This document shows positions 859 to 64,000 of a stretch of DNA of 64,000 nt, in pieces. A program made the position numbers and the translations under genes. The DNA comes from Bolinopsis microptera. Lineage: Eukaryota > Ctenophora > Tentaculata > Lobata > Bolinopsidae. Below the pieces are notes generated by a model, which was not told where the DNA came from, made no database searches, and saw nothing but the letters and a program-made list of their open reading frames with translations. The stretch is from contig NC_087078.1 of NCBI RefSeq assembly GCF_026151205.1, positions 11,825,118 to 11,889,117 on the forward strand. The letters run 5' to 3'. The first letter of the stretch is position 1; each line of letters opens with the position of its first letter.

Positions 859-2258
859 GGGGGCCGGGCAGGGGGGGTCTTTATGAAATTTCTCTCGAAA
901 TTGATTTTATAGTTGTTTCTGATAGAGGGGAGTGATATCTACCAGATGTTTTTGGTCCCATGGAAAAATTTTGTTCCTAGCCGAAATTATTGCCGGTCAA
1001 AGGTCAGCGCTCATGTTATCTTGAAATTGAAAATTAGCTGGGTGTGCATTTTCCTTTGTCTTACTAACGTGTGTGAGCGCAGTGTAGTGAGAAAGTGTTT
1101 TTAACAGATTTATTATTAGACTTAGGATTATGATTTTTAATATATTACATTGATATAAGATTTATTTTTGATAGGTACTTAATAAAGTTGATGAATTTCC
1201 CTCCCTATTAAAATTTTAAACCCATTTAGTGAAAATTGATAAACGAAGATCTAGATATTGATACATATTATAACCAACATTGCTTATATTCTGCCTTGTA
1301 AACAAAGAGCAAATCTTCTTAATGCCTTCTTCCTGTCCTAAAACTAAAACTTCATCCTATTAAAGTAAAGGCCAGTTGTTACCACAAGCTATTATACCGT
1401 CCCTCTCAAAAACATGCCTCAGCCTCCATCAAAAACAATTTTAGTTTTCAGTCCTTCTAGTTTCCAAAAATCTACCGAGCTAGTGTTCTGGTGTGCACAA
1501 AAGCCCCTAAGCCCGTGCATTCCTTGCCCCGCTAGCTGCCAGTCCTTGACAAACTTCCAATAGCAAAGATCAACTAGTCATTTACAAATTGAGCACTATA
1601 CAATTTTAATTGTTTTAAATATTTGACTTTGTAAAATGAGCTAAAACATTGATTTATTAGTTTCATTGATTTATTAGTTTCATTGAATTGTATTGCGCGA
1701 GCGATTTTCAATCGCGCGCCCTGAAAATCGAGTCTAAAAATCTATCTTCTCCTACAGTTTTTGAGCAATCACCTTGAAACTTTCAGGATATGTTCTAAGG
1801 ACCATTTAGAAACTTCTGGTCTATCAGAATTTTAAAATAGGCCTTAGAAAAGTTTTTATTCGATTTTGAAAATCTTGGACCTGAAAAAATCGTCAAAAAA
1901 CGAGGTCCAAGATTTTCAAAATCGAATAAAAACTTTTTTAAGGCCTCTTTTAAAATTCTGATAGACCAGAAGTTTCTAAATGGTCCTTAGAACATATCCT
2001 GAAAGTTTCAAGGTGATTGCTCAAAAAATGTAGGAGAAGATAGATTTTTAGACTCGATTTTCAGGGCGCGCGATTGAAAATCGCTCGCGCAATACAATTA
2101 CACATGAGCGCTGACCCTTGACCGGCAATAATTTCGGCTAGGAACAAAATTTTTCCATGGGACCAAAATTATCTGGTAGATATCACTCCCCTCTATCAGA
2201 AACAACTATAAAATCAATTTCGAGAGAAATTTCATAAAGACCCCCCCCCCCTGCCCCC
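859..2258. mobile_element. Palindromic DNA transposon flanked by TTAA, inserted in the RT gene
   Basis: The element is flanked by TTAA at 855-858 and 2259-2262. The left end (GGGGGCCGGGCAGGG) and the inverted right end match for about 155 bases, to about 1016 on the left and 2101 on the right. The stretch 1687-2100 is itself a near-perfect palindrome centred near 1886. If the nested copy at 1018-1686 is removed, the whole element becomes one foldback of about 730 bases. TTAA duplication is typical of piggyBac-type transposition, but no transposase is present, so the family is inferred only from the target site. The precise frame restoration of the host RT gene confirms both boundaries. Confidence 0.88.
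1018..1686 (+). mobile_element. 5'-truncated retrotransposon copy nested inside the palindromic element
   Basis: About 670 bases that interrupt the left arm of the palindrome. The right half aligns by eye with the 3' UTR at 3340-3577: shared blocks include the GTGTGCAAAAGC-like segment, TGCCCCG.TAG and TGTAAAATG.GCTAAAA, and both end in tandem TTTCATTG units. It carries no coding region, as expected for a 5'-truncated target-primed insertion. The exact left boundary and any target duplication are unclear. Confidence 0.7.
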
Positions 2259-3709: not shown

Positions 3710-4297
3710 CAGTGGCGTAACGAAGGGCCCCCGCTGACCAGTGGCGTAACGTTGCCTGTTGGCGCCCCCCTGCCGAAAAGGCGCCCCCCTGTTGGCGCCC
3801 CCTCCCCTTTTGGTGCCCCTCCCTAAAATTGAACAAATTAGGTGATTTTAGAGAATACGCCGGTAAAATCTCTAAAAAAGTGTGTATCTAGAGCAAAACG
3901 CGCAGTTTTGCTAATACTTTAGTTAAGTTTTCGAAATTGTCCCACATTCAAACGACGATTTGGCGCCCCCCTAAGACGGCGCCCCCCTGCACAGCAGGGT
4001 CAGCAGGGCCCTTTGTTACGCTACTGCCGCTGACCCCGCTGTGCGGGGGGGGGGCGCCGTCTTAGGGGGGGCGCCAAATCGTCGTTTGAATGTGGGAAAA
4101 TTTCGAAAACTTAACTAAAGTACTAGCAAAACTGCACGTTTTGCTCTAGATACAAATTTTTTTAGAGATTTTACCGGCGTATTCTCTAAAATCACCTAAT
4201 TTGTTCAATATTAGGGAAGGGCACCAAAAGGGGAGGGGGCGCCAACAGGGGGGCACTTTTTTGGCGGGGGGCGCCAACAGGCAATGTTACGCCACTG
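3710..4297 (+). mobile_element. hAT-like MITE, outer copy (interrupted)
   Basis: It begins CAGTGGCGTAACGAAGGG at 3710 and ends in the inverse GTTACGCCACTG at 4297. Flanks are actgtggt (3702-3709) and actttggt (4298-4305), an 8-base duplication with one change. CAGTGGCG termini and 8-base duplications are typical of hAT transposons. A second copy sits inside it in the opposite orientation, so the two together read as a large imperfect palindrome. No coding capacity. Confidence 0.85.
3739..4026 (-). mobile_element. hAT-like MITE inserted into its own sister copy
   Basis: A 288-base unit beginning CAGTGGCGTAACGTTGCC and ending GTTACGCTACTG, in reverse orientation to the copy that surrounds it. 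Perfect 8-base flanks ccgctgac lie at 3731-3738 and 4027-4034, so this is a bona fide transposition rather than a rearrangement. It is the younger of the two insertions. Confidence 0.88.
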
Positions 4298-4812
4298 ACT
4301 TTGGTCATCGAGTTTAGCTCTATCAGTTGTGTTGGCTGTAGCCTGAAAGTCATTAGGATTGACAGGGAGTAAAATAAGGGGATTTTATCCGAACAGCATC
4401 TATGGTATAATTGAAATGAGTTAATGAGGAATTTCGCTTAAAGATAATTTCAAAATCTGTTGTTGCCTCAAAATATTACTTGTCAACACTCCACCAGATG
4501 CTAAAAATATCAAAAGATTTTATCTACGAATCAACCTTTTCATACAAACAATGGCTCGATCTGATGGCTTTGCGTTCCAAAAGAAAACAACAATTTCAAG
4601 AGAACAACAATTTTATTTAGTATCAATTAAAGCAAACAAAAATATATTTTATATATAACTAGCACAACCTTTAGACCAGATATCTTTGGGACTTGCAGTA
4701 GCAAGAGAGTGGCTAGAAGGTATATACCTTTTACAAAAATACCTCCAAATGAATCCAGGGTGATACAGGATCAGAGAGTGCAGACCATGAAGTTTTCGCA
4801 CCCACCCTTGCC

Positions 4813-5049
4813 CAGTGGCGCAACGAAGGGTCCTGCTGACCCCGCTGTGTGAGGGGCGCTAAATTGTCGTGGGACAATTTCGAAAAACTGTGCATTTTGC
4901 TCTAGAAACACTTTTTTAGAGATTTTACCGGCGTATCCTCTAAAATCATCTAATTTGTTCAATTTTAGGGAGGGGCACAAAAAGGGGAGGGGGCGCCAAC
5001 AGGGGAGCGCTTTTTGAGCGGGGTGCCAACAGGCAACATTACGCCACTG
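4813..5049 (+). mobile_element. hAT-like MITE, third copy
   Basis: A 237-base single copy of the family seen at 3.7-4.3 kb, CAGTGGCGCAACGAAGGG through GTTGGCACC-type sequence to TACGCCACTG. Perfect 8-base flanks cccttgcc lie at 4805-4812 and 5050-5057. This uninterrupted copy defines the unit length of the family. Confidence 0.9.
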
Positions 5050-19738: not shown

Positions 19739-22700
19739 ATGTTATCAAGCAGCCGTCTTATCTCCAGTGCTAACCGTGCCAGATCAGACATTGACCAGGT
19801 AATAGAGTCCCTCAGTTCTGAGCAATCTAATTCTAACAGCAGTGACGCTAAGGGGCTCAGTGAGGATACATCTGATGTTGTGCCGGAGGATGGGTTGAGT
19901 TCCTCTAAGAACTGTTCTGTGGAGCGGTATCATGATTTGGATGGATGCCAACAAAAGTCAGCCTTTCATCTGTATTCGTGTGGGGAGCTATCCGAGACTT
20001 ACACTCAACAGCTGCAGTTTGACGATAAAAGTACGTTAGTTTCCGCGTTTTTTGGCGACGTTTTATTTCAGCTTCAAGACCAACATGATCGCACCAAAAT
20101 AGCACAGCAAAGTTACCATTTAAATGATAAGTAATCTACTCACCAACCATATTTAGCACCAGGTATTTGTTAATTAATTGATTACACCAGGTAATGATGC
20201 TGATGACGACACACCAATAAGCTCAATATGGGAGACCAGATGGTTTGATCACGCAGCTCTAGTGGGCCGCTTTATGGCTGAGGACAAGATACATTCCGAC
20301 CAGGACGCAGCCGGCTCTGATACCCTGCAATGTAAGTTGTAAAGTTTTAATCTGAGAAATGTACGGAATTTCCTTCAAACTTTGCCCTGAAATTTCGATT
20401 GAGCTGGTATGTTATGATCAACCCTGTAATAGATGTTAATATTTTCAGACATACCTGTACCTTCTCAAGAGATAACAATAACCTCCTTACTTGAGCCTCG
20501 TCCCGAAAGTACGGAAGTTAAAAAGTCCCTGTCAAAACAGAAGTCGAGGGTAAAAAGTAAAGTAACCGTCACCAGTAGCAGTGCGCCACCCCACTTCAAG
20601 TGTAGAGTACAAGATTGTAAAGCTTCAGTAAGTTTTGTAATGGTTTTATAATTTAGCTGATCTGCCAGAGAAAATAAATGTTAGAATAAAAGCGCATCTT
20701 CAGGTAAGTTTTACCTCGTCGTTGCTTAGCAACATCAAAAGATTGTACGTGCGCGAGCAAGCACAGATCATCATTGCGCGTTTTCGTGCTTTATGTTACG
20801 TCATGACTAACTCACATTACTCTCATTCTATGACTAATCATAACTTTGGCTGTGATCCATATTTTTTTGATGCGGTAAAAAGTATCGATTAGGGAATAAT
20901 TAGAACTTTGTCGTCAACGTCATATTATAATATAATATACGAGTTACATTATGTGCGTCAAAACCAATGAGCAAATAACGTATTATATTATGTTAAATAC
21001 CGAGTATTAGATGTTGCTGAGTTTTGTAAATCAACATGGAATTTACAAGCGACGAAGTTATTATAAGTAGCAGTTATTATAGTTTTTAGAAAAACAGTTT
21101 TTATTCCCAGAAGAATGTCGTTGTTATTTAAGATAAATGACTTGGTCTGACGGGGGGGGGGGGTACCACTGTCCATTTTATCCCTGCACAAAAAAAACTG
21201 AAAAAAGACAAAGACAAAAGGGACAAAAGGGACAAGAGGGACAAAAGGGACAAAAAAAGATAATAGGGACAAAAAAGACAAAAAAGACAAAATAGACAAA
21301 AAAGACGGGGACAAAAAGGACAAAATGGACAAAAAGACAGGGACAAAATGGACAAAATGGACAAAATGGACAAAAAGGACAGGGACAAACGAGACAAATA
21401 GACAGGGACAAAATGGACAGTAAAGAAAATAAGGTCAATTATCTGTTGAAATGCAAAAAATAAGTTCAGGCACAGTTCCAACAAGCTAATAAGTTGGGTA
21501 AATTCAGACAGAACAGTAAAGTCAATCTTGGTTAATGGTTATATATCAGCCTTAGTGTACTCACTGTTCAAGACAACTTGGTCTAGTCCGATATGCCTGC
21601 TCACTGATTCACATTTGACGTTTGAGCTGAGCTTGCATTGCAAACAACACTCAAAAAGCAAGACAACTAATATTGCACTGAGGGGATACAGAGGAAGAGA
21701 TATAACTACTCTGTTTGTTCTAGAGCTAGTTATTAGATTGAATATGGATTAAGGGCAGACATTGATGAGGCTGATTATCGGGATTATCTATTACAAAATC
21801 TTAAAATTCAGAATTATACATTGTTAACAATTTCGTTTTGCTAACAGCTCTCTTCGTCTGATGATCTAGAGAAGTCGCTGATTTCCGATAGGGTACAGGG
21901 TGTCGATTCTTTATGCTTCCTGTGTCTGAGGAAGCGTTCCTTCTTGTTCCACAGTTGTTTACATTTAGCTTCTTTTTCAGCTGTGTTTTTCAGTCATAAG
22001 TTTTTGTAAGTAATTGTGTGGGTCTGGGTATCTACTTCTGGCCGCTATGAGCGTTATGATATTAAAAGATTATGACTTTTTTGATATCACCACTTGATTA
22101 ATGGGATTAATGAAATATTGACTGAACCGTGTACACATTTATTTATGTATTGCCGTTGATGAATTCTGCTTATTTCAGTCCCTTCAGTGGTTTCAGTTGA
22201 TTCTAAGTACAGCAAAACACTGACATAAAAATCTAAATTGTAGATGTCGAGTAGAATATATACATTCTCTACATTTGAGCTTGTCTAATTTTTTGTCTCA
22301 TTTGTCCAAAATTTGTGTCCCTTTTGTCCCTTTTGTCCCTAGTATTGTCCATTTTGTCCCCAAAACACTGTCCTTCACAAAAAAATGTAAAAAAAGACAA
22401 AGACAAAATGGACAAAATGGACAGTGGTACCCCCCCCCCCCCCCCCCCCCTCTGACCTCGTAAGCTATTTAGAGAGTTAATTCTAAAAGTGTCCATTTTA
22501 ATGTTATAGCATTTATTTGAAATTAGTCAATTTATTTGATATCGTGTAACATTCCGTCATTCAATGGGGCGAAGTTTTATCAGTTTAGTTAATATGGTTT
22601 TAGTGTTTGCTTGTAAGGGGTCGTTCACATAAATTGCACATGAGATATTGGAAATCACAAAATAACCGTACCAGCTTTGTTCCAGATCAAATCTTTGATC

Positions 22701-25700: not shown

Positions 25701-28700
25701 AAGAGGTAAGATATTAAAGCAAGCTACGCCAATACCAACCAATACCCATCCGCCAGCTACATACAGCTCAGTGCCCAATATTGAAGAGACGATTACCCCG
25801 ACTTGGATGAAACTGCTTATCAAGATCATCGACTTCTGATCTTCTTTGAGATACAGATCAATTACCTCCCCCTGAAATATATTATAGTAAACAATTTCAT
25901 TTTAGTGTTTTATATATTATATAGAACCTTAAAAATTAGCATGAAAACAAAATATTTCTACGAAACATTAAAGTAAAAAGAAACCAAACCTGGTTGATAA
26001 TCGATAAAAGGATAAATCTGCCACTAACCTGAACAAAGACATACATAATGCCCACTGCACACCCTTGGAGCCCCCTCAACAGTGCTATAGTCCCAAATAT
26101 CACAACAGCTCCACAGCTCCTATCAATAGTAACGTGGATTAAAGACATCAGTGCCGTACTGACCAGATTGAAGATACTGAGCCCGAGGAACCTTCGGAAC
26201 AGAGATGCATTCCTGATAGTTTTAGGTAGGAAGCTGTAGAGAAAGGGGCCCATTGGGGAGGTGATTAGTGTTGCAGATATGGAAACTGTACCTAGAGGTA
26301 AGAGCTGTGAAATTTATAAAGCGGCAATCAGACATTTAAATTTAGAAAAACTTAAAACCTCTAAAATTCTTGTTTTGAAAAATAATTGAACAAAAGAACA
26401 AATCAAAGCTCTTACCTATAATTACCTATAATTACCTATAATTACCTATAATCACCTATAATTACCTATAATTACCATAATTACCTATAATGGTGCTGAA
26501 GCCAGACTTCGTAACCCAGTCTAAATAGAATCCAGAGGGGTACAATCGGGTAAGAAAGACTATCATCATTCCGAGGCAGGCGAAAACAACAATCGTTATC
26601 CTATGCCCTCTTGTTAGTTCTGTAAAGTAAGAACATTCTTAACACACATTATCGAAATGAAATTTTATGATCTGCAGTAACTTAATTTTTTACGGATTGT
26701 TTACTAATTATTCATAAAATCTTAGGCCGTAGAATAAGCAGGTTTGCCTTGATTAATTGATTGGGTGAGTTCTGAAGGTCGCAATATACTAAGCATAATA
26801 TCAGAACAAGCTTGGTGCACTTCAAAATGTATTAAACGATAAACAATATAATATTAATATGTTAAAGACATGCTGTATTTACTATTTACTACTTATCTGC
26901 AGTTCAGAGTATATTTAAGGCTGTATTAATTTACTTCTTACCTGAACACGGTGGATCATCTTTCAATCGTTTACATTGTTCTGAAAGTTTACATTGTTCT
27001 GAAAGTTTACATTGTTCTGAAAGATCATCTTTCTCTGTAGTCATATCTCTTTGGCTGACTGAACAAACTTAAAAATCCACTAAAAACAAAATGAACAAAT
27101 AATTGAATAAGTTACTTTAATGGCGTCACGTATGGGGCTTTGGTGCCGTTGAGTTTTTTAGGGCGATCGTTCGATCATCTCAATTCAGGTGAACCGCTCT
27201 CAATCTCGTTGACAGTAGACCTACATTAGTGGGTGAGGCTAATTAGTATACGGATTTGCAACAACTTCTGACCTTGAGGCAGCTAGGCACACTTATGGGG
27301 CTATTCTTAAACAGTGCAAATCCATATTTATTATCGGACCCTAATGACCTCAGTAAGATTTAAGTTAAAATTATCATGTTATAATCAGCTGCTAAGTGTT
27401 AATCTGGACAAACCGTGTTTTTCGAGCATGATTTGCAGCTGAACCGTTTGTGTGCAGCTGATGAATGGCTGCAAGGTTTGCAAATCCGGTCATAATTTGC
27501 ACGTTGCGGCTAATACTGGTATTAAAGTGTTGGCTCTCTCAGCATATGGAGAGATAAACTTCTTTCTTTGGGATTTATAGTGACCTCATATAAAAGCACA
27601 GACCTTGTATTAAAATATGTAGATCAAGTATTCCTGTAATCCTTGCTGTGATATTCTGTCACTCTCTTAGAAGTTTCGTCTTTGTTTGACATACAAGGCA
27701 TTCCAATGAAACGCAACGATAAAAGATCGAATGAATTTTATCATTCCACGGAAAAAGTTGTTTCAAAATACGCCGAATTTCATTCCTAAGAGAAATGTGT
27801 GTTCAATTAAATGTGTGCTCAATTAAATGTGTGCTAACCGTGTCCATCAACAAATAACCAAATTATCCAGATATGTTTGTTCGCGAATTTCGTAGAATTT
27901 CACCTCATTATTTAGGGGATAATACCTGTTTAGGGGTCTCGAAAAGTTATAACTATTCTGAAAGTAGATTATTGGAGTATACCCCTACTAGTATAATTAG
28001 TACCTACTAATTATGTATTTTTAATTTTGATCCCTTTAAAGAATCATACCCTGAGACCAACAAAAAAATAGCAATCCAAAATAAATGTACCCTCTTTTAA
28101 CCCTCTAGTATCAGGTAAGTGACCATAACCAGGTACCTCTGGATACATTAACAGCAGATAATTATGCAAAACCAGATATTTTTGCGGGCACTCATTTTCG
28201 CGGATTTCTAAAATTAGATCATTTTCGCGCCATCAATTTTTCGCGAATTGAAATGATTCGATGGAGAAATGAGTTAGAGGCACTCAATTTCGCGGCACAA
28301 ATTGTCCCAAACAATTGCGAAAATAAATTCCCCACCAAAATTAATGGCTTTACAGTAGAAGGGGGTTTCTCTTTGCTGGAATAGCTCAATTTTCACTATT
28401 TGTTTGAAAATGGGGGAAAATGAGGGAAAATAGAGGAAAATGGGGTTGGAACCCCCAACAACTAATTATTATTACTTTATCCTCGCAGTTCAGTACACAA
28501 TGGCAGAGATGGTACCACCAGAAATCAGCTCACAGACAGATTCAGTTACAGTGCCCGGAATGTCACAAGGTATTCGTGAAACTGCAACAGCTAGAGGTGC
28601 ACCTCAGGTATTACAGGAATTTGTAGTTAATAATACGGAATAAGTTGATAAATAAGTTGATTACTTGTGTTTTGACACTTACACTAAACTTCGGTAAGTC

Positions 28701-31178: not shown

Positions 31179-31327
31179 GGGGTCTTCACATATTACGTAA
31201 TCAGCTGAGGGGGGGGGGGGTTTCCGAATGATTACGCTAGTGTAATTTTGACACAATAGGTATGTGTCAAACTGATTACGAAGGGGGGTTGTTCCCAAAA
31301 ATGATTACGTAATATGTGAACGACCCC
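31179..31327. mobile_element. MITE with GGGGTCGTTCACATATTACG ends
   Basis: 149 bases with terminal inverted repeats of about 25 bases (GGGGTC.TTCACATATTACGTA). The flanking trinucleotide is tta on both sides. It abuts the SINE. A sister copy is at 35585-35758. Confidence 0.82.
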
Positions 31328-31816
31328 TTATTGCCACAAGTAGCCACTAAATCAGTCACCCAATTTTTTTAAACCTTGTGACTTTGAAACGTCGTTTATC
31401 CTAACAGTGCAATATCATTTGTCGCAAATCAGAATAATCAGAAACTATTTGGAAAAACCCAAAAACTGTCTTGTGAAAAGACCTTGAGGTTATATAGTAT
31501 GAAAATGACCAACATCGAATTATTTTGAACGCTGATTCCGAATCGGCGAATCACTCATAATAGGGTTGGGGTTTTGGTTTAATTTATGTAAAATCTCTTT
31601 TTTTCCCCGGCTACATAACCGTAAAAACTCAAGTCAAGCGATACTTTTTGGGCGAGCGAAATAATAAGAACCCACAAATACAAAATAGTGATGCTGGAGA
31701 TCCTCTAATTTGGGGGCAAAAAGTCGCCGGAAGGAACCATCATATCATATATAACTTTACCGAGCTTTCTTCAGTCTTCTACTGCTAGAAATTTTTGCCA
31801 AAAGCCATAAATGCCA

Positions 31817-32574
31817 ACACTATATAGTGACAAGCACTTTATAGTGACATGTCACTATATAGTCCTGTCACTATAAAGTTGAAAGTGCGTTTTGCACACT
31901 ATATAGTGACATGTGAGACGGCTGCAAATTTACCTAAAAGGATGTGACCCATGTCTTCAGATGGTAAGGTCGCGTAACATTGAACGTGCTACAGATCATA
32001 ACTAGCTGATCCGTCATCTCAAATATTTTATGGCAAGCTGTAGAAAGGTTGTGACCCAAGTACTCATGTGGAAACATGAGTACTTGTTGGAGCTCGTAAT
32101 TGGAGTCGTTGAAGGACAAGCTATATCAATCATGGCTACTCCCTCTGTTGAATACACTACTGGTAAACTAGGAAAGGACAACGCTCTCGCGGATGGTCAA
32201 CGCTATAACACCTTAAACAGAAAGAGGAACGGTTAACTGATGGAGTCACGAAGACCTACAGGACCTGTGTAAGTGTTGTTCGTGGCTGTCTGGCTCAACT
32301 GCAAACTGGTGCTTCATGAACAGACAGTAAAAAACTCTCCGAACCACAACCACGATGAACAAAGAGCAGAGATCTTGGTCGACCGCTCTAAGAAGACGAT
32401 GAAGGAACGTGCAGCGACATCGGACACATCAAGGAAAAGTCGATATAAGATAAACTTGTCACTATATGTTTCTGTCACTATATAGTGCGTTTTGCACACT
32501 ATATGGTGACAAAGATCAGCTGTCATTATAAAGTGCTTGTCACTATATAGTGTTGTCACTATATAGTGCGATTA
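31817..32574 (+). mobile_element. MULE-like element with long inverted ends of CACTATATAGTG repeats
   Basis: Both ends consist of repeated, self-palindromic CACTATATAGTG blocks sharing acactatatagtgacaagca and gcgttttgcacactatat. The direct flanks ccataaatgcca at 31805-31816 and 32575-32586 give a target duplication of about 9-12 bases, a length used by Mutator-like elements. The interior holds FLYWCH-like coding remnants, a domain often joined to MULE transposases. No transposase remains. Confidence 0.72.
32120..32485 (+). pseudogene. FLYWCH-type zinc finger remnant inside the MULE-like element
   Basis: Pieces of one domain are spread over three frames: LADGQRYNTLNRKRNG (about 32190-32237), then TYRTCVSVVRGCLAQLQTG, then NSPNHNHDEQRAEI (about 32336-32380). 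The order RY..., C...C, HNH matches the Cys2-His2 layout of FLYWCH fingers, which bind DNA in MULE transposases. At least two frameshifts separate the pieces. The assignment is by pattern only. Confidence 0.5.
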
Positions 32575-32589
32575 CCATAAATGCCATTA

Positions 32590-34086
32590 CTGATTACACA
32601 ATACACATTGTCATTAGGAAAACAATAACCTAGCTGTCCATCACAATGCTGGCAAGCATTACCGTCGCCCTTATATTCACAACACTATTTACCCCCTATA
32701 CGATTATATCCCCTTTATTGTTTTCCAGGCATTAAGACTCATCGAAAGTAGTTCAGCAGGTACATTTAAGTTCAAAACATTCTAATTCAATGTTGAAGAT
32801 GACAGGAATAAGAAATAGTTGTATGGAGGTTTTTGCGGGAAATTTGCGCAAAATACGCGCCAGCATGTTATACGAAATTAGGTAAAAAACCCAAAATCGC
32901 CATATTCAGGTGCCTTAAAAACCATGTTAAAATTGAGTTAGAGATCTGAAACTTTGCAGGGCGTCTAGACCTTGTCCAAATCGACTGTAAAAAAAAAGTC
33001 ATGTTTCAGGAGTATCGGGAAGTGGGTTTTCTGGAACCCCTGTTTTACAACAGATTGTCGTGAAGATATATATGTATGTATAGACGCTTTTTGCAGTCAA
33101 TTGTAGCCTACATTTAAGTGTCCGTAGATTCAAAAGTATAAACGATACAGTCATTTCGAACCACAGGTTTTAAAGATAATTGTTTAAGCTTTAGTTTACA
33201 TTGTATTGAAAAATAATTTAACGTCATCATCATCACTTGATGACGTCATCAAGTTAAGTGTTTTTAAAACTTGACTTTTGACAAAGTAACAACTTTTTAA
33301 ATCGATTTTACACTATTAAGGAGTAATTTTATTCAAAATCTGAGGACATTTTCATCTTAGATAATTGTTCAAGCATTCCGAAAATCTACCGGAATAGTTT
33401 CCTACCTTGCTCCTTCATAAAGATATTTGCTATTGAAGTTAGTGCTTTTTTGAAGAATAATTTTATAAAAACACAAAAGTTGTGAATTAGTATTCTCTGG
33501 TGTTGGGCCATCCCTTGGGTTGTGGAGCTCAATTTTGCTTCTTAAAGGTGTAAATTGTGTTATAGGCTAGTTTTAAAGTTAAAAATCGAAAAGTTGCACA
33601 CGTGGGGACACGCCCAAATTCATTTAAAATCGCTAAAATCGCTAAAAATTTTGATTTTCACGATTTTTATCAACTTTGGAGTCCCGCTGTGATCCAAGTT
33701 CTTTTTGAAATCTTCTGAAACTTTGCATGCTTATCAAACTATATATTAAATACCACTATGCAAAAATTTACGGTGATTCAATATTGTATGCGCACGCGAC
33801 GTCCGCTCAAAGTTTGCACGTGCGAAAGGTGAGAAATTTGCTCATTCGTGATTTCGAATATATTCTGCTTTCCACGATATTTAAATGGCATTATATATGA
33901 ATTTAATGCCAACTTGAATGAGTAAAAAGTGCCATATTCAGTCGGTTATCGACAGAAATACCTAACTAAACACAAGGAAACGTTTTCAAAGGCAGAATTT
34001 CGAAATCGTCGAAATTACCTCCTTGTTAATGAAGTTTCGACTAGCTGTGTAAATTATCCTGACATTATAATCAAAAAGAGATGATA
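32590..34086. other. Intergenic, no gene seen
   Basis: AT-rich sequence without a supportable frame. It contains a small palindromic gatgacgtcatc near 33239 (a CRE-like core) but nothing around it to support regulation. Confidence 0.4.
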
Positions 34087-34413
34087 TTTGACCAAAACCC
34101 ATAATCATGGGTAGAGTGTACCGCTGCCAGTGTCTCTCTTTTCCAAACAAAAGGAAATGATATTAATTTGAGGAACAGTCCGCTAATGCAAATTGATACC
34201 GAGAATGAAATCGGTCGCTCGCTTTTTCCATTCGATCACGGCTTACGAATTGTAATAAAGCTTATTGATTTGAAAAAGCGAGCGACCGATTTCATTCTCG
34301 GTATCAATTTGCATTAGCGGACTGTTCCTCAAATTAATATCATTTCCTTTTGTTTGGAAAAGAGAGACACTGGCAGCGGTACACTCTACCCATGATTATG
34401 GGTTTTGGTCAAA
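34087..34413. repeat. Perfect 142-bp inverted repeat with a 43-bp loop
   Basis: 34087-34228 and 34272-34413 appear perfectly complementary over their full length, starting tttgaccaaaacccataatc on the left. The absence of mismatches indicates a very recent origin or conversion between the arms. There is no coding potential and no obvious target duplication. Confidence 0.9.
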
Positions 34414-34714
34414 TCACTTATATTCTTTTTAATAAACCCTTCCTCAAGTTCCCGTCTTGAACATTGAAGAAATTTACAATTTAGATTTGCATCGGGAAAA
34501 AATGAAATATTATAAATTTTTTGTTGTTCATGCCGCAGAGTGAAATTTCAGTTTCACCCGCAACAACAAACAACAACAACAATGTAAAAAAGCTTGTTTT
34601 CTCAAATTCTTTTTTAATTGACGATGTCAATTTCGCAGCTCGGCTAGGCCCAGTGGCCAGTCTAGTAGCGCATCTCGCCGATCTATTTTTCACAGAAAGA
34701 TTCTTAATTTAATA

Positions 34715-34812
34715 ATGTCTTGGCACCAAGGCAGCGACCTCGCTGTCCGGGTGTGGGGTGGTCAGCAACTCTGATGACCCGATAGAAGCACACCAAAGTA
34801 AGTAACAAGTAA
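34715..34812 (-). mobile_element. GC-rich segment ending in AAGTAAGTAA, possible element end
   Basis: A GC-rich block (cagcgacctcgctgtccggg) in AT-rich surroundings, ending in aagtaagtaacaagtaaa. The same kind of run marks the 5' end of the non-LTR element at 8.66 kb, so this could be a truncated 5' end of a related element. Tentative. Confidence 0.3.
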
Positions 34813-34973
34813 ATGATGGCTCATTGTTTCGCTCGCCTTAAAATTATCACGTCAATTTGTTTTTTTACGGTTTTGCAGCCGAACAATACGGTTTCAGTAC
34901 ACTTACAGTAAAGGAAATGCCCGTAACCAGAACTGCTCCCACCAAACCAATGCCGTAGCATTTATTATACAAG

Positions 34974-35120
34974 AATACGTTACTGAACCTTCCTGCCTTT
35001 CTGAGGGACAACACACTTCCACCTCCCACCATTGATGAGAAGTTGTTTAACTTGATGATAGGAAACCTGGATCATATTAATTCCAACCCTTCCATCAATT
35101 CCAACAAAGAAACTGGACAG
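34974..35120 (+). CDS. Isolated candidate exon
   Basis: An open 49-codon stretch reading NTLLNLPAFLRDNTLPPPTI and ending KETGQ before a consensus GTATGT donor, with an AAG acceptor-like start. Composition looks coding, but I find no partner exon on either side and no family. The stretch lies between two copies of a direct repeat (34861-34905 and 35217-35262, sharing tttacggttttgcagcc), so it may be captured sequence in a mobile element. Confidence 0.28.
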
Positions 35121-35272
35121 GTATGTGGGCTGATTCTACTGGGATATTAATATTATCATTATCAATAAGAAAATATCTGATTCACATTTTTTTATAGAGG
35201 AATAGGCAATGTTTACTTTTTTTTACGGTTTTGCAGCCAAATTGAACAATACGGTTTCAGTTTTACATAAAC

Positions 35273-35300
35273 TGTCCTAACCCTAACCCTAACCGAGTAA
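35273..35300 (+). repeat. Short interstitial telomere-like repeat
   Basis: ctaaccctaaccctaacc is two to three TTAGGG-type units, with further ctaacc-like words up to 35345. Too short to be more than chance or a small interstitial seed. Confidence 0.4.
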
Positions 35301-35584
35301 CCACAACCTGAAGCTAGCCATAACCCTAACAGTAACAACAACACTAATTTAACCCCAAACAATTGGATATGTGGTTTACTGAACTGCCAAATCATTTTTG
35401 CTCATACAACTCCTCAAGACAGTATTTTTACACTAAGTCGTGGATTCGGAATTATCGCCAAAACTAAAAACACATCGTATCAATTAAGTGTAACTCATAC
35501 TAATAGAGTAAAACTTTCATGCCCTCAGGGCCTTTTCACACGATTTAAAAAAATTTGGGCGAGCAATTTGGTGGAAGTGGTTGA

Positions 35585-35758
35585 GGGGTCGTTCACATAT
35601 TACGTTATCACTTTTTGGACAATTTTTAACCCCCCCCCCCTCCCCCTCCATAATCAGTTTTACACATAGCTATTGCCTATTGTGTCAAAATTACACTAGT
35701 GTTATCATTTGGAAACCCCCTCCCCCCTCGGCTGATTACGTAATATGTGAACGACCCC
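35585..35758. mobile_element. MITE with GGGGTCGTTCACATATTACG ends, second copy
   Basis: 174 bases, same termini and same internal tttgacacaata-type block as the copy at 31179, in reverse orientation. The flanks are tga and tta. Solo ends of the same family occur near 22617 and 35855. Confidence 0.8.
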
Positions 35759-36468
35759 TTATTCTCTTCAATTTGCAATTTGGTAGCTCCTGGATAATCA
35801 GGAGTTTGATTTTTTAACTTCGTGGTACTAGTTTCCATATCTTTTTTATAAGGATCATTCACATATTAGGGGAAAGGGTTTGGATAATTTTACGTTGGTG
35901 CAATGTCTACACAAAAACCATGAAAAATAACGAGTATCTGTCTTTACTGTATTAAACTTTAATTTACAGTAATTTTAAGACAATATGTATTTTAATTTTG
36001 TTTCCTGAATAAAACTGTTCCTTCGAGTCATAATTTGAATCATCAATTACTTATAAGAATCACAACCAAGAAATAATTTAGATATCCCCACGGACCTGAT
36101 AAATCGAATTAATTATTTTTCTGTTTTGTTAACAAACACAACGAAAAAGTGTTAGATACGGCGGGTTAATCAATACCAGCATAAACTTTTTATTATTGAT
36201 CCCACACAGAAATAGGAAGACTGTTTCATGCTTCACGTTCAACGGAGATTTGATCGAGAACCGTAATTTAAGATAATCGGATGGAAATGTTTAAAGTATC
36301 ATAGAAAGATAGAAGACGCTGAAATAACATCAATAAAGACGATGGAGTTGTGTTGATTTTGAGCATGGACTTCCTGCCCTTTCAGTTTCAAACGACAAAA
36401 TAGTTACATTCCCTGATGATCTTCTAAGGTACATAGTTCAGGGTCGTACATATTCAATATTCATATAT

Positions 36469-40800: not shown

Positions 40801-43800
40801 GTGTTCTCCAAAATAGTAACCCTGCACCATAATGCCTCAATACATCTCATAGTTCTCAAATGGACACTGTTTTTTAGGGGGGGATGCAACGTCAATTAAT
40901 GTCAATTAATGTCAATTAATGTCAATTAATGTCAATTAATGTCAATTAATGTCAATTAATGTCAATTAATGTCAATTAATGTCAATTAATGTCAATGTCA
41001 GTTTTGCAAAATTTTGGAATACTGACATTAATTGACACGATATTTTTCGACCAGAGATTATGTAGTTCTATCATATTTTTAGCACTTTAGAACGTTTATA
41101 TCATCAATTTATTCGCTACTATCACATATGGAAATGTGAAATGTGAAAAAAATTCAGATCATTAAACAATAAAACTAAAATAATACGGTTTTCCTAAATT
41201 TGATTTTCTTAAATGGGCGTGGCCATCCAAGGGCGTGGTTCTCAACATCATCAGAACTTAAAACCCACATTAAACGAAATGCCTTCATGACATTTATATT
41301 TGAATAACGAATCTTAAACAGCTAACATTACTCCTTCATACTAAAAAAGCCGATTCTAGATATTTTACCTGTATAAGAAACCAATAAAATATGGGCGTGG
41401 CCGGTGGGGACCGAAGATGGAAGAGTTGGAAGCTGAAATTTTTTTTGGTGGTCTTTGAACTTAAGGATCAACAGATAAGAACATACTCATAATTATTCAA
41501 GGACATTTTGTTTTTTTGAACCGGTCTAACTACATAGATGTGAATATCTTGAATATTTATCGAATAATGATAATCTCAAATTTCAAGACAAATTAATGTC
41601 AATTAATGTCAATTAATGTCAATTAATGTCAATTAATGTCAATTAATGTCAATTAATGTCAATTAATGTCAATTAATGTCAATTAATGTCAATGTCAGTT
41701 TGGGGTTTTTATGGAATACTGACATTAATTGACGTTGCATCCCCCCCGTTTTTTATTGGGGACCAGCTTTGCTGACTGGCCAATGTTTACTTCAAATATA
41801 TGATATATATTATTATAGATACAAAATGAACGTAAAAAGTAGCACAAAATACTTAATAACTCCTAATCTCTATGTCTCTATATGACTGCTAAATGATAAA
41901 TGTGATCATAAATCAGGTAATATGTTAAAAGATAAAATATAAGTTATTATGAACACTGTCATTGAGATGAATGTTAACTAGATGTGCAAGTTAGAAATTA
42001 ACTATGCTAAATAGGCTCTCGAGAATTGTTTAATCCTGTATGATCACTTAAAAAAGCAAAAAACTGAACGTCAAAACATGTTGCAAACACTCAAGCTAGC
42101 AACAATCAACTAAAACCAATTAATTCGCCACAAAATATATTTGACCCATACTATCCCTCGGCCTTAGTTTCAATCTTATCCTGCAAAGTATTTTACCAGC
42201 CTTTATGAAAAACACTTTGTCCTTCTCTTCTGCCGCTCTGTCCTTCATTTCCTTGACTATAAGTCTCTTGTAATCTGGCGTGTTTTAGGAGACCGATCTG
42301 GACAGACGAAAACAGTTTTAAACTTTTCTGTTATCCTCAGATTCTTAGCGTTGGCAACAAGCTGATCAACAACAATTGAGCTTGATACTTTCACTTTAAC
42401 AGGCCGGGCGTTAACTGAATTGTCCTTCGATTTCCTACCAATTCTGCACGCTTCAACGATCTTTCTTCGGTTTCTGTCCAATGTTTTGGAAAACCTCGAT
42501 AACTGTGTCAACAAGTTCGCTATCGCTCCCTTCGGACAGACCAAATACAACGAAGTTGCGACTGCGGTCCTCTTCCTCAACAACACGTTTGACTACGCTT
42601 TTAAGCGTTTCCGAGCCGATGACCTGCTCAGTTGGCTGTGAATTCTTCACTATTGAGCTGTACGTTTGAAATTCGGTTTTTTCAACAGATGTCTTAACGG
42701 TGTTCTTCAATGTGTCAAGTTGTTCAGTCTTCTCAGTCTTACAGTTCGAAAGCTCTGCCTGAACACTGATCAACTGTTTCTGACTCTCTAATCTCTATGA
42801 GATTGCTCTGCATTAAAATGAACTCGTTCCACAATTTCTTGACAAGGTCTATAATAAACGTATCATTGATCTGAAACGAATCATTTAGATAACGGACTAC
42901 ATCAGGCTTGGTCAACTAGTTAATGTCCCACCATTTATCGCAACAATTTCGACATAAGGTTTCTTCAACTCCATTCTGAAATCTTTGCTGAAATTTTTGC
43001 TGAAATCTTTGCTTATTATGATGAAATCTTGGCTGAAATCTTGGCTGAAATCTTTGCTATAATATGATGATGCGTTATAACGTATATGGATACGTTATAA
43101 CGTATCCATCAACAACACATCAATATCGTTAAGTAATTCACTTTGCATTACAAGGTGAGGCTGTAGCGGTTAAAACAAGCCGTGTTGGATATTAATTAAC
43201 AAAGATAAGCTAAGCGATAACAGAGCTACAATTTAGCAACGAATGTAAAAGTGTAATATCTGTGTAATATCTGTTGTTTACTGTTTGTTTGGGGACCGGT
43301 TTTTTGTACTGTACCTCAACATGACATTAAAAGTGAGACAGGGACACGTTATATTTCAAGATAAAAATGTAACTCTGTCCTCTGTAGTCTATCACTTAAA
43401 AGAGTTACAAATTGTAACTAACAATATCTCACGTTTCAAGTGTTTTATATGAAGTGACAATAACTCAAACTACAAAAGACGTTACAAAATAACAATAAAT
43501 CACATTTAAAATTAAAAAGAATAACTCACATCGAGCAGCTCGACTCGTGGCTTGTTGGGCCGGTACGGGACTGTGACCAGTATTTCATGATGAAGAGAAC
43601 ACCCAGCCGGATTACACAGCCTCATCTGTCCGTACCTCATGATCTGTGCTTCAGGCAGCAACTCATCCACTACAAAGTAAGTCCGTCCGCTTATCTTGTA
43701 AGTATCAATACCTCGTGTTATCTCGAATGTTAGTGTGTCGCTCCCCCATGATACTCGCTCTGGTGCTGTCCACCAAATCCTGGAGCGAGGGGCGGGGTTA

Positions 43801-51091: not shown

Positions 51092-51122
<31 letters not shown>
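51092..51122 (+). repeat. C31 homopolymer between aatgtt direct repeats
   Basis: An uninterrupted run of 31 C, with aatgtt on each side. Assembly length may be unreliable. Confidence 0.9.
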
Positions 51123-59725: not shown

Positions 59726-60224
59726 CAGACGTGGGCGCCGCACCGGTACGCCGCACCGGTACGCCGCCGCCGCCGATAAATTCGACACGCCGCCGCCGCC
59801 GATAAATTTCGATCGGCGCGCCGAATGTCAAATTTTTGCCTAAACAGTTTTTAAAAAATGAATGACACGCGACGCGCTTTAAAATTAATCAAAATTTAAT
59901 TTGGCCAGCCTCCAAGTCTTGACATTCGGGTGTTACAAAAGAATTTGAAACTACATTTCGTAACATCAGTTGTGCCGTTATCGTAGCCAAATATCTGCTT
60001 GTTGCTGAACAGAGTATAAATAGTTGCTCTTTCAAATCGTCATTCAATTTTGAAATGAACCTTAGCATACAAAGTGTACATTAGCTTATAAGATGTCAGT
60101 CAGTGGTACAATGAGTATGACTATGTTGCCAAAAAATTGGTTCCAGCCGCCGATACGCCGCCGCCGCCGAGTGAAATACGGCCTCACGCCGCCGCTGCAG
60201 CATTTTCGGCGGCGCCCACGTCTG
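59726..60224. mobile_element. hAT-like element with CGCCG-rich ends
   Basis: Begins CAGACGTGGGCGCCGC and ends in the inverse; an exact 8-base duplication ctgcatag lies at 59718-59725 and 60225-60232. Subterminal regions on both sides are arrays of CGCCGCCG with cgccgataaatt, unlike the AT-rich interior and flanks. 499 bases, no transposase. Confidence 0.88.
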
Positions 60225-60645: not shown

Positions 60646-61280
60646 CTATCGAACTCCAAACAGTCTCAAATAAATCCTACAAAAAAAGGCCACGATGTTA
60701 AACATTCCCTTCGAACTCCAACCAGTCTCAAATAAATTTTGATCAGCTTCTCTCGTATTGCAAAATAACGATCTGGAGCTGCACGAAGAAGTAATGAACT
60801 AAAGGTAAATAAATATACCAGCAGGTTGATGGGGAATATCAGCTTAAAATCACGTGCAAGGGTAAACATGTGGCCAAAAGTCAGGACAAAGAATTATCCC
60901 GCTACCTAACAATGGCTGGACACAGCCGAAATAATAACAGCATTGTTTGGGCTTGATTTTTAGTAAACAGATGAATAGAACTCTTAAGTATGTAATTGTA
61001 ACCCAACATTATCGACCATAGATCCGTGCATTATTCACTCCTTTAATGGAAGTAGGGAGGCTGTGTTAGCAGTCAGAAACTGCCCATGACGTACGCTTCA
61101 AAACACAACCCAACTACATCACGTGATCACGACTACATCACGACTCACTGGAGTAGCGTCTTCCATTAACCCGGCTATAAATTACTTACGCGGTATACAA
61201 TTACACGATATCATCAGCGATTGTAGCATTTTAAACTGAAATTGCTCTTTTCCATTAAGATTATTTAAGAGACACAGAGG

Positions 61281-62066
61281 CGGGGGGTGCAGGTACTTTT
61301 TTGATGGAACATATGCTGACTTTTCGAAATTTCTGAAAATAACCACCCACCCACCTCCTTCAAGAATGGAATAACAAAAAAGTACCACGGTACTTTTCGA
61401 AATTGTCCCGAATGACCCCCACCCCCTCCTTTTTTTTCAAAAAATTCCTGTTCATCAGTTTTCCTAAACTGAAGATGTTCTGACACCTCGATGTGACTTG
61501 TGAGCAGGGTTGCCGGCATTTTTGAGAGTCATTTTTAAGGTTTTTTCAAGTCTTTTAAGGCCCCTTTTGACCCATTTTTAAGGTCCAAAACAGTTAAATT
61601 CAAGGTTTTTTAAGGTCCACAGTGCGAAAGTTTGGACAAACGTAATGCAATAAAGTGCAAATTTAAGGTTTTTTGAAGGTCTTCCGCTACAGAAATTGCA
61701 ATCATATCTAAAGGGGGAAGGTATAATTTCAGAAAAAACCCAATTAGATCTACACCGACCTAGGTATAATTTCAGAAAACCCCAATTAGATCTACAACAA
61801 GCTAGGTATAATTTCAGAAAACCCCAATTAGATCTACAACAAGCTAGGTATAATTTCAGAAAACCCCAATTCTAACATTTTGGTAATGAAAAAGTACCAT
61901 GTACTTTTATCATCATGTTTTGGGTACCCCTTCTTTTTTTGGGACAAAAAAAGTACCATGATACTTTTCGAAAATTTCATAAAACACCCACCCACCCCTC
62001 GGGTACTTTTAGGGTTATGTTCCATCAAAAAAGTACCTACCCCCCCCCCCCCCCCCCCCCCCCCCG
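61281..62066. mobile_element. G-run-terminated element with internal 42-base array
   Basis: Left end CGGGGGGTGCAGGTACTTTT, then ttgatggaacat; the right end is the inverse, finishing in a run of C and a final G. The flank acagagg lies at 61274-61280 and 62067-62073. Internal blocks of gtaccatg.tacttttcgaaa repeat in both orientations. A 42-base tandem (aggtataatttcagaaaacc...) runs about 61720-61870. No gene. Confidence 0.72.
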
Positions 62067-64000
62067 ACAGAGGCACTGTATAGTGTATAAGAGTGTAAAC
62101 TGTAAATTGTAAGTTCAGAAATGACAGAGTAGTCGCAATTTTTATGATAATCAAGTACGAGACCTCTGACCTACACTGCAGTTATATTCACTGTGATCAT
62201 AATAATTTAGGGAGTTTAAATCTTAACCACCTCATCCATATATCATATTTTTATTGCTCAAATATACGATATATCATTAGCAATGATGTTATGTTGAGGT
62301 TAAATAACTGTTAACACTACGTAAAGTTGCTATGATCTGTCACCAATTTCTCTCTCTAGACACCAATATTCCATACCATATAAGGACAATACAATATGGA
62401 ATATTAGCCATTGGTTATGTGGCATGCATTGTCTGAGTTTGGGTGCCATTTCAATTAATCTAGTTCAAAGTAAGGTAATACTAATCCTAGTTTAAATCTG
62501 ACTCCTGATAATTAATTATCTAAACAGCTATCAAGCCTCATTGACACGAGTAAAATTTGAAAAGATCATGCGAAAAATAAGAGCAGGATCAAAATATCGA
62601 CTTCGTGGTCAGTCTATCTGAGTCATTGCGGTCGGTAGTGGTACAACGTTGACCATTGGACGTCCAATATACAAATCAATATTCAGTAACAGATACAGTC
62701 CAGTGTGTTTGGTTGCAGTACCATACTGCATGATGCAAATGCAATCAATCTGAGAAAATCAATGATCAGTACAACTAGTAGCAGTTCTAACCCTATGCCG
62801 GGTACTTTCGGTAATTATCAAAATCATACCTTATTTTATGTCGATTGTGTACGTGACAGAGGAAATGACAGCAGATCAGATCAGAGCAGAGCAGAGAACG
62901 AATTGTGCAGACAATAACCTGGTAACCTGGTAACCTGGTAACCTGGTAACCTGGTAACCTGGTAACCTGGTAACCTGGTAACCTGGTAACCTGGTAACAG
63001 TTCAACAACAACAACAAATAGTTACAGACTCTAGCTGACACGATCAGTTCTCTGGTAAGTAAAAGCGGAATTTGGGGAAGCCACGGTAAAATAAGTTAAT
63101 CGGGGTTTAAGCAGTTTAAATCGGGATTTTGTCAGTTCAAATTATTAAATATGTATGTTAACACCTGTTTGATAGAAAGGAAATAGCCGCGGTTAATCAG
63201 GTAGAAGTAAGGCGGGTTTTACTGTACCGGAAATGGAACGGGATTTCAAAGGGATTGTAATGGGATTCCAACAACTAGTTGGAAGTTTAAAAGAATATAC
63301 ACGTGGAAGCCCGCTCGACGCATTAGCCAATCACGTATCATTATCAATCCGATAATTCCAGGCATTGTAGTTTATTCCTTTTCTTACCCAGTAACCTGAG
63401 TACCATTTCTTATCTCTACAAGCTTGAGGTGTGTTTCGACACACGTCACATTAGTTAGACAATTCTGGCAACAGTCTGAGTCACGAATATTTCTAAGCAG
63501 AGAAACAATGTGTTTGAAGGAATTTAACAAATATAAGACGAGGTAAAAAGCTTTAATTTTGACATCAGTTCTTAAAATTATTAGTTAAATAGTACCAGCT
63601 ATTATGGTAGCGCTGAAAGTTGTAAAAGTTATGTTAAAAGTATTTAAAAGCGTCAGGTCAAACCCAAACAAGATGTTGCCCTTCCACCCAACACATTGAT
63701 ACGTGTCGTGATAAATTGTAGTCTGGTACGTGATAAATAGTAGCCTGGTCATTTTGAAATGTTTCTGGAATCTGTATTATATATAGTGATAGAGTTCGTT
63801 ACCGGACACTGTGAAATAAACTAGGTACGATCTTAACAAATTTAAGTCGGCAACAACCCCCAAAATGTGCCTGATCATGGAAGAGAAGACGATGAACCAC
63901 TTTAATGGTCATTGCCCAATTAGGACTTTAGTTTTGGTTTTGGTTTGGTTTAGGGAGCAAACATGCCACATACGTCCAGGTTCGAGATCAGAATATACAA
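62067..64000. other. Right edge of window, no gene seen
   Basis: Apart from the 8-base array at 62916-62999 I find no gene, RNA or transposon boundary here. Confidence 0.4.
62916..62999 (+). repeat. 8-base tandem repeat (ggtaacct)n, long copy
   Basis: Ten or eleven perfect taacctgg units. GGTAACC is a palindrome, so the array can form many small cruciforms. Confidence 0.95.

Follow-up and report, generated by a model that had tools for sequence, protein, structure and literature searches.

Guanine-run ends on several apparently nonautonomous DNA transposon families with differing target-site duplications in the ctenophore Bolinopsis microptera

Among described DNA transposons, those nearest to the elements considered here differ from one another in their ends and in the duplications that they leave at the target site. 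Merlin elements, which are reported from ctenophores, have ends beginning 5'-GG and duplications of 8–9 bp (PMC8101967). Kolobok elements duplicate TTAA and have termini that start with purines and end with pyrimidines (RR..YY; PMC9587614), and TTAA is also the target of piggyBac. In the hAT element Herves the transposase binds a short motif at both ends (PMC3143072), and the hAT groups include some with duplications of 5, 6 and 7 bp (PMC12730594). IS3EU combines a 6-bp duplication with TAYGG..CCRTA ends, an end pattern published for fungal members, and Dada, with a 6–7-bp duplication and no terminal inverted repeats, inserts in small RNA genes. Within the open-licence literature we found no description of transposon ends made of G-runs. 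Here we analysed such ends in 64,000 nucleotides of the B. microptera genome (contig NC_087078.1, positions 11,825,118 to 11,889,117; hereafter the window), and followed them through the genome.

Three elements of the window, here called F1, F2 and F3, look like nonautonomous inverted-repeat DNA transposons, having inverted ends, target-site duplications and dispersed copies, with the duplication less regular in F3 (window positions are given without strand). F1 (21152..22450; 1299 bp, G12...C21) lies between copies of TCTGAC at 21146..21151 and 22451..22456, and F2 (40877..41747; 871 bp, G7...C7) between copies of GTTTTTTA at 40869..40876 and 41748..41755; these duplications were read directly and their flanks rechecked. 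F3 (61281..62066; 786 bp, CGGGGGG...C26G) is bounded as given because a C stands outside its G-run and a G outside its C-run, and it is flanked by the 7-bp ACAGAGG at 61274..61280 and 62067..62073. An 8-bp reading, ACAGAGGC, would be possible on the window copy of F3 alone, but three further copies (L029, L042, L045) favour 7 bp. Read base by base, the words inside the runs match as inverted copies in all three elements, with a two-base difference between the ends of the F3 window copy (TGCAGG / TAGG). F1 carries a left subterminal array of roughly 9-bp GGGACAAAA-type units (21210..21419) and right subterminal units with inverted GGACA (22303..22373) ahead of the terminal outward units, and F2 has 10-bp arrays on the left (40891..40996; 10.6 copies) and right (41591..41693; 10.3 copies). 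The F3 array, of 3.6 copies of a 42-bp unit (61719..61871), is internal and does not contain the terminal word; GGTACTTTT occurs seven times in F3, in both orientations, against 0.01 expected under simple shuffling. Direct reading thus confirms what the first-pass annotation had described: three elements with a G-run start, a C end, inverted ends and tandem arrays, the arrays lying just inside the ends, in units related to the terminal word, in the first two elements, the only ones it had named in this respect. The differing duplications that it listed as 6, 8 and 7–8 bases are read here as TCTGAC (6 bp), GTTTTTTA (8 bp) and ACAGAGG (7 bp).

The same ends are found well beyond the window. When the end words, each with four G attached, were searched for exact matches across the 264,652,675-base genome, a search to which copies without the G's are invisible, F1 gave 41 matches, F2 100 and F3 21, while the reversed words used as controls gave none for any of the three. 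Ends facing inward no more than 10 kb apart made up 12 pairs in F1 (39 of the 41 places being taken in), 42 in F2 and five in F3, and no outward pair was seen; in 34 of the 42 F2 pairs the ends lie 729–898 bases apart. Extending 16 single F2 ends by 1.5 kb showed that 12 of them have an altered but matching partner end (L053, L054, L057–L064, L066, L067). At L052 the sequence reads N, at L055 the similarity gives out near 640, L056 consists of an isolated end word, and at L065:1-1400 (minus strand) the end passes into a long tandem array whose unit measures roughly 120 bases. Partner ends found without demanding the G's still bore G's or close variants. Separately, one segment of F1 (query 739-936) occurs three times at a spacing of 903 bases at L020 (C2:12908020-12910023), as if captured in a satellite.

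Duplication lengths were read family by family. In F2 the duplication is 8 bp in 15 of the 16 copies read (from 42 exact pairs), three of the 15 being readable as 9 through a further match at a run base or an adjoining base; in copy L016, seven of the eight bases match. The F1 sample comprised 12 copies, ten with exact ends and two (L022, L024) with altered ends, and ten of the 12 fit 6 bp: exactly in five (window, L007, L019, L024, L051), and with more allowed through run bases in another five (L018, L022, L047, L049, L050). The exceptions are L046, with 5 bp, and L048, with no duplication; L048 shares its left flank with L049, and the two may have originated in one insertion. F1 and F2 therefore clearly differ in duplication length. 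The duplication of F3 is probably 7 bp, less firmly: four of ten copies with both ends show this length (window, L029, L042, L045), L031 shows 9 bp and L026 6 bp, and no clear repeat is present at the flanks of L017, L030, L043 and L044. Both families fall outside the 8–9 bp of Merlin, F1 with 6 bp and F3 with mostly 7, apart from the one copy with 9. Since hAT groups include duplications of 5, 6 and 7 bp, the length by itself is not enough to assign F1 or F3. As IS3EU, F1 would fit in its 6-bp duplication but not in its ends, as far as the pattern of fungal members goes, and Dada does not fit F1 and F3, which have inverted ends.

Going inward from either end of the copies read, the G-run comes after the duplication and before the end word, and is therefore part of the element. 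In F2 it is 6–8 G long at 28 of 32 ends, with a mode of 7 (17 of 32), while the range is 6–36 in F1 and 6–39 in F3. Left and right runs of the same copy show no positive correlation in length (r = -0.05, -0.20 and -0.47 over 11, 16 and 7 pairs), and places that share flanks differ in run length (C18/C30 at L018; G14/G17 at L048/L049), which points to slippage after insertion. Slippage looks to account for part of the variation in run length, and the homopolymer lengths may include assembly error. The doubt attached to the first-pass annotation, that boundaries might prove inconsistent or the G-runs independent expansions, is thus answered in two ways: the run lies inside the duplication and is the element's own, but its length varies between flank-sharing copies. 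A link between the run and the GC-rich loop-anchor motif of ctenophores was considered and set aside; the motif contains two CpG (PMC12221973), whereas the run contains none.

Further families with G-run ends were recognized. In an inverted-pair scan of the window and the loci L012–L031 (205,209 bases), 26 rows began with G, as against six control rows beginning with C, none for A runs and one for T runs; the contrast is biased by the choice of these loci for their G-run ends. The window alone gave six G rows, in which one element makes up two rows and 31209-35720 is unconfirmed, and five control rows, every one within 3765-4993. Two families were read from one copy each: F5 (L013:7523-7926; end TTCACAAC) and F6 (L028:6593-7290; end AGGGAAT or AGGGAATG), the latter with 246 exact ends in the genome and no reversed match. 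We dropped F6 as a family with a 7-bp duplication, the flank of the copy allowing 8 bp, and likewise the idea that the 10-bp arrays at 26412 and 60532 belong to transposon ends, since none could be seen next to them.

Other G-run elements are flanked by TTAA. These are F4 (L014:531-1889), which is located within an F2 array; F7, a window element with long inverted repeats at 859..2258 and TTAA at 855-858 and 2259-2262; and the element at L088. In the genome, TTAA followed by 12 G occurs at 988 sites and the reversed string at 58; the corresponding figures for 12 C are 197 and 157. The 69 TTAA sites listed on one contig (C1) form 11 pairs that face inward and none that face outward. The 988 TTAA-flanked runs of at least 12 G are enough to matter for repeat annotation and for the origin of homopolymers in this genome. 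In their TTAA duplication and RR..YY ends, F4, F7 and L088 agree with the published features of Kolobok, the purine start being here a G-run, and the TTAA families thus have ends of Kolobok type. The TTAA target is also common to them and piggyBac; the piggyBac nested in L013, which has its own TTAA, starts with CCC and ends with GGG, and so has a polarity opposite to that of the G-run families.

F1, F2, F5 and F6 have an end layout in common, namely G-run, short word, outward unit or units, spacer, and inverted units; the array may lie before or after the spacer. The unit is about 9 bases long in F1 and 10 in F2, F5 and F6, as read for F5 and F6 in one copy each. F3, which has no 9–10-bp array, bears GTACTTTT in both outward and inverted orientation. 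The end words are unrelated between families. With Herves and other hAT elements that bear repeated subterminal sites, the G-run families share a short motif at both ends, binding being known for Herves. hAT ends are not known to begin with G-runs.

The search for transposases took long or single-ended members (L012–L031) and compared their frames with Pfam. Of 145 non-repetitive frames of at least 85 aa listed, 95 were scanned, along with 20 proteins in two partly overlapping sets of ten, and among these fetched long copies no transposase of F1, F2 or F3 was found. The scanned frames yielded nothing beyond retroelements, a piggyBac nested in L013, and host-like genes. Nested LINE frames are present in L012 and L020, L017 contains other inserted sequence, and the TTAA-flanked element at L088 has no frame longer than 93 aa. 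The long member with a transposase and matching ends, which the first-pass annotation had proposed to look for, was thus absent from the fetched copies. Adjacent long frames at L027:3-7961 (minus strand) comprise a 2OG-Fe(II) oxygenase frame, a frame with endonuclease and reverse transcriptase, and a NERD nuclease that also has helicase-like matches.

Across the genome, 58 Merlin and 88 MULE matches were obtained, together with 150 hAT matches scored out of 365 candidates. Measured from the exact F1, F2 and F3 ends, the closest of the 58 Merlin and 87 MULE matches compared lies at a distance of 31 kb. No Merlin (IS1595-type) gene was found with F2 ends, the nearest of the 58 matches lying 94 kb from an exact F2 end, nor a MULE transposase, the nearest of the 87 of 88 matches compared lying 64 kb from one; the scored hAT matches, compared with the end positions by eye only, gave none within an element. 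A search for P-type transposases returned no match, but neither did its control genomes.

We consider it probable that the window holds members of several separate nonautonomous cut-and-paste families that have a common end design, with G-run...C-run ends and, in F3, an extra outer C and G. The G-run ends look more like an unusual feature added to transposons of known kinds than the mark of one new group. Against this explanation stand the lack of an autonomous member of any family among the copies fetched, the varying duplications of F3 and its missing 9–10-bp array, and the F1 and F2 copies that depart from the length of their family (L046, L048 and L016). Of the undescribed set of nonautonomous DNA transposons that the first-pass annotation had suggested, the nonautonomous character and mostly consistent boundaries are supported; the single set is not, the duplications being 6, 8, probably 7 and, at TTAA, 4 bp. 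Each family would be moved, now or formerly, by a transposase encoded elsewhere, which, to judge from the layout, may bind the 9–10-bp units that lie outward and, past the spacer, inverted behind each end; the tandem arrays would then be multiplied binding sites. The run may derive from the short GG or purine stretch with which known superfamilies begin, and may have lengthened partly through replication slippage. A common end design across differing duplication lengths would mean either convergence on one architecture or a mutation process acting on transposon ends, and it makes the terminal homopolymer a poor character for grouping transposons.

One alternative, which we regard as doubtful, is that F2, F5 and F6 are nonautonomous members of Merlin proper, cross-moved by a Merlin transposase of the same genome. 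They resemble Merlin in the GG start, the 8-bp duplication and the arrays of short units (F5 and F6 in one copy each), in keeping with the published 5'-GG ends and 8–9-bp duplications (PMC8101967). Moreover, four of 20 Merlin loci retrieved from this genome (L070, L072, L074, L084) have 8-bp duplications beside GGCAGT-type ends, and two Merlin groups, starting GGCAGT or GGTAACTCGG, bear repeated short subterminal units. On the other hand, the Merlin ends read here have GG and no long run, whereas F2, F5 and F6 usually have at least seven G's; the sequences after the G's are unrelated; and, in the places compared, no Merlin domain comes closer than 94 kb to an F2 end. As sequence likeness is lacking and no Merlin gene accompanies F2, these families are not filed as Merlin. 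Among the Merlin copies themselves, repeated short units stand just inside GG-starting ends at L073, L075–L077, L068–L072 and L084, and an array upstream of one Merlin group (L089–L092) has a unit of about 79 bases common to the loci.

That F1, F2, F3, F5 and F6 make up a single undescribed superfamily, marked by G-run ends and by a duplication flexible within 6–8 bp, seems to us unlikely. The layout common to F1, F2, F5 and F6, the placing of no known transposase in any family and the F3 copies with 6, 7 and 9 bp speak for it, but F1 and F2 each keep a duplication length of their own, the end words are unrelated, and the TTAA families also have the G-run, yet use a different target. Also unlikely, in our estimate, is that several unrelated superfamilies converged on G-run ends through a shared cause, for instance G-run binding by a host protein, a shielding of the cut ends or the adding of G's in the course of transposition, so that the run would function as an end signal, beyond mere slippage of an ancestral GG. 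The window does contain long G/C runs with no element to be seen (e.g. at 51092), but the run's place inside the duplication and outside the end word at both ends, and its recurrence at partner ends found without demanding it, make independent microsatellites adjoining inverted repeats by chance barely credible.

The window also holds inverted-end elements that do not begin with a G-run. One, at 59726-60224, starts with CAGACG (CAGACGTGGGCG), has the 8-bp duplication CTGCATAG and appears hAT-like by its ends; another, at 31897-32487, has CACTATATAGTGAC ends (start CACTATATAG) and the 9-bp repeat CGTTTTGCA on both sides. Related flanks of the TCACATATTACGTAATC type, perhaps another inverted-end repeat family, occur beside G/C runs in the window at 31209-31320 and 35630-35760, and around position 9406 of L030.
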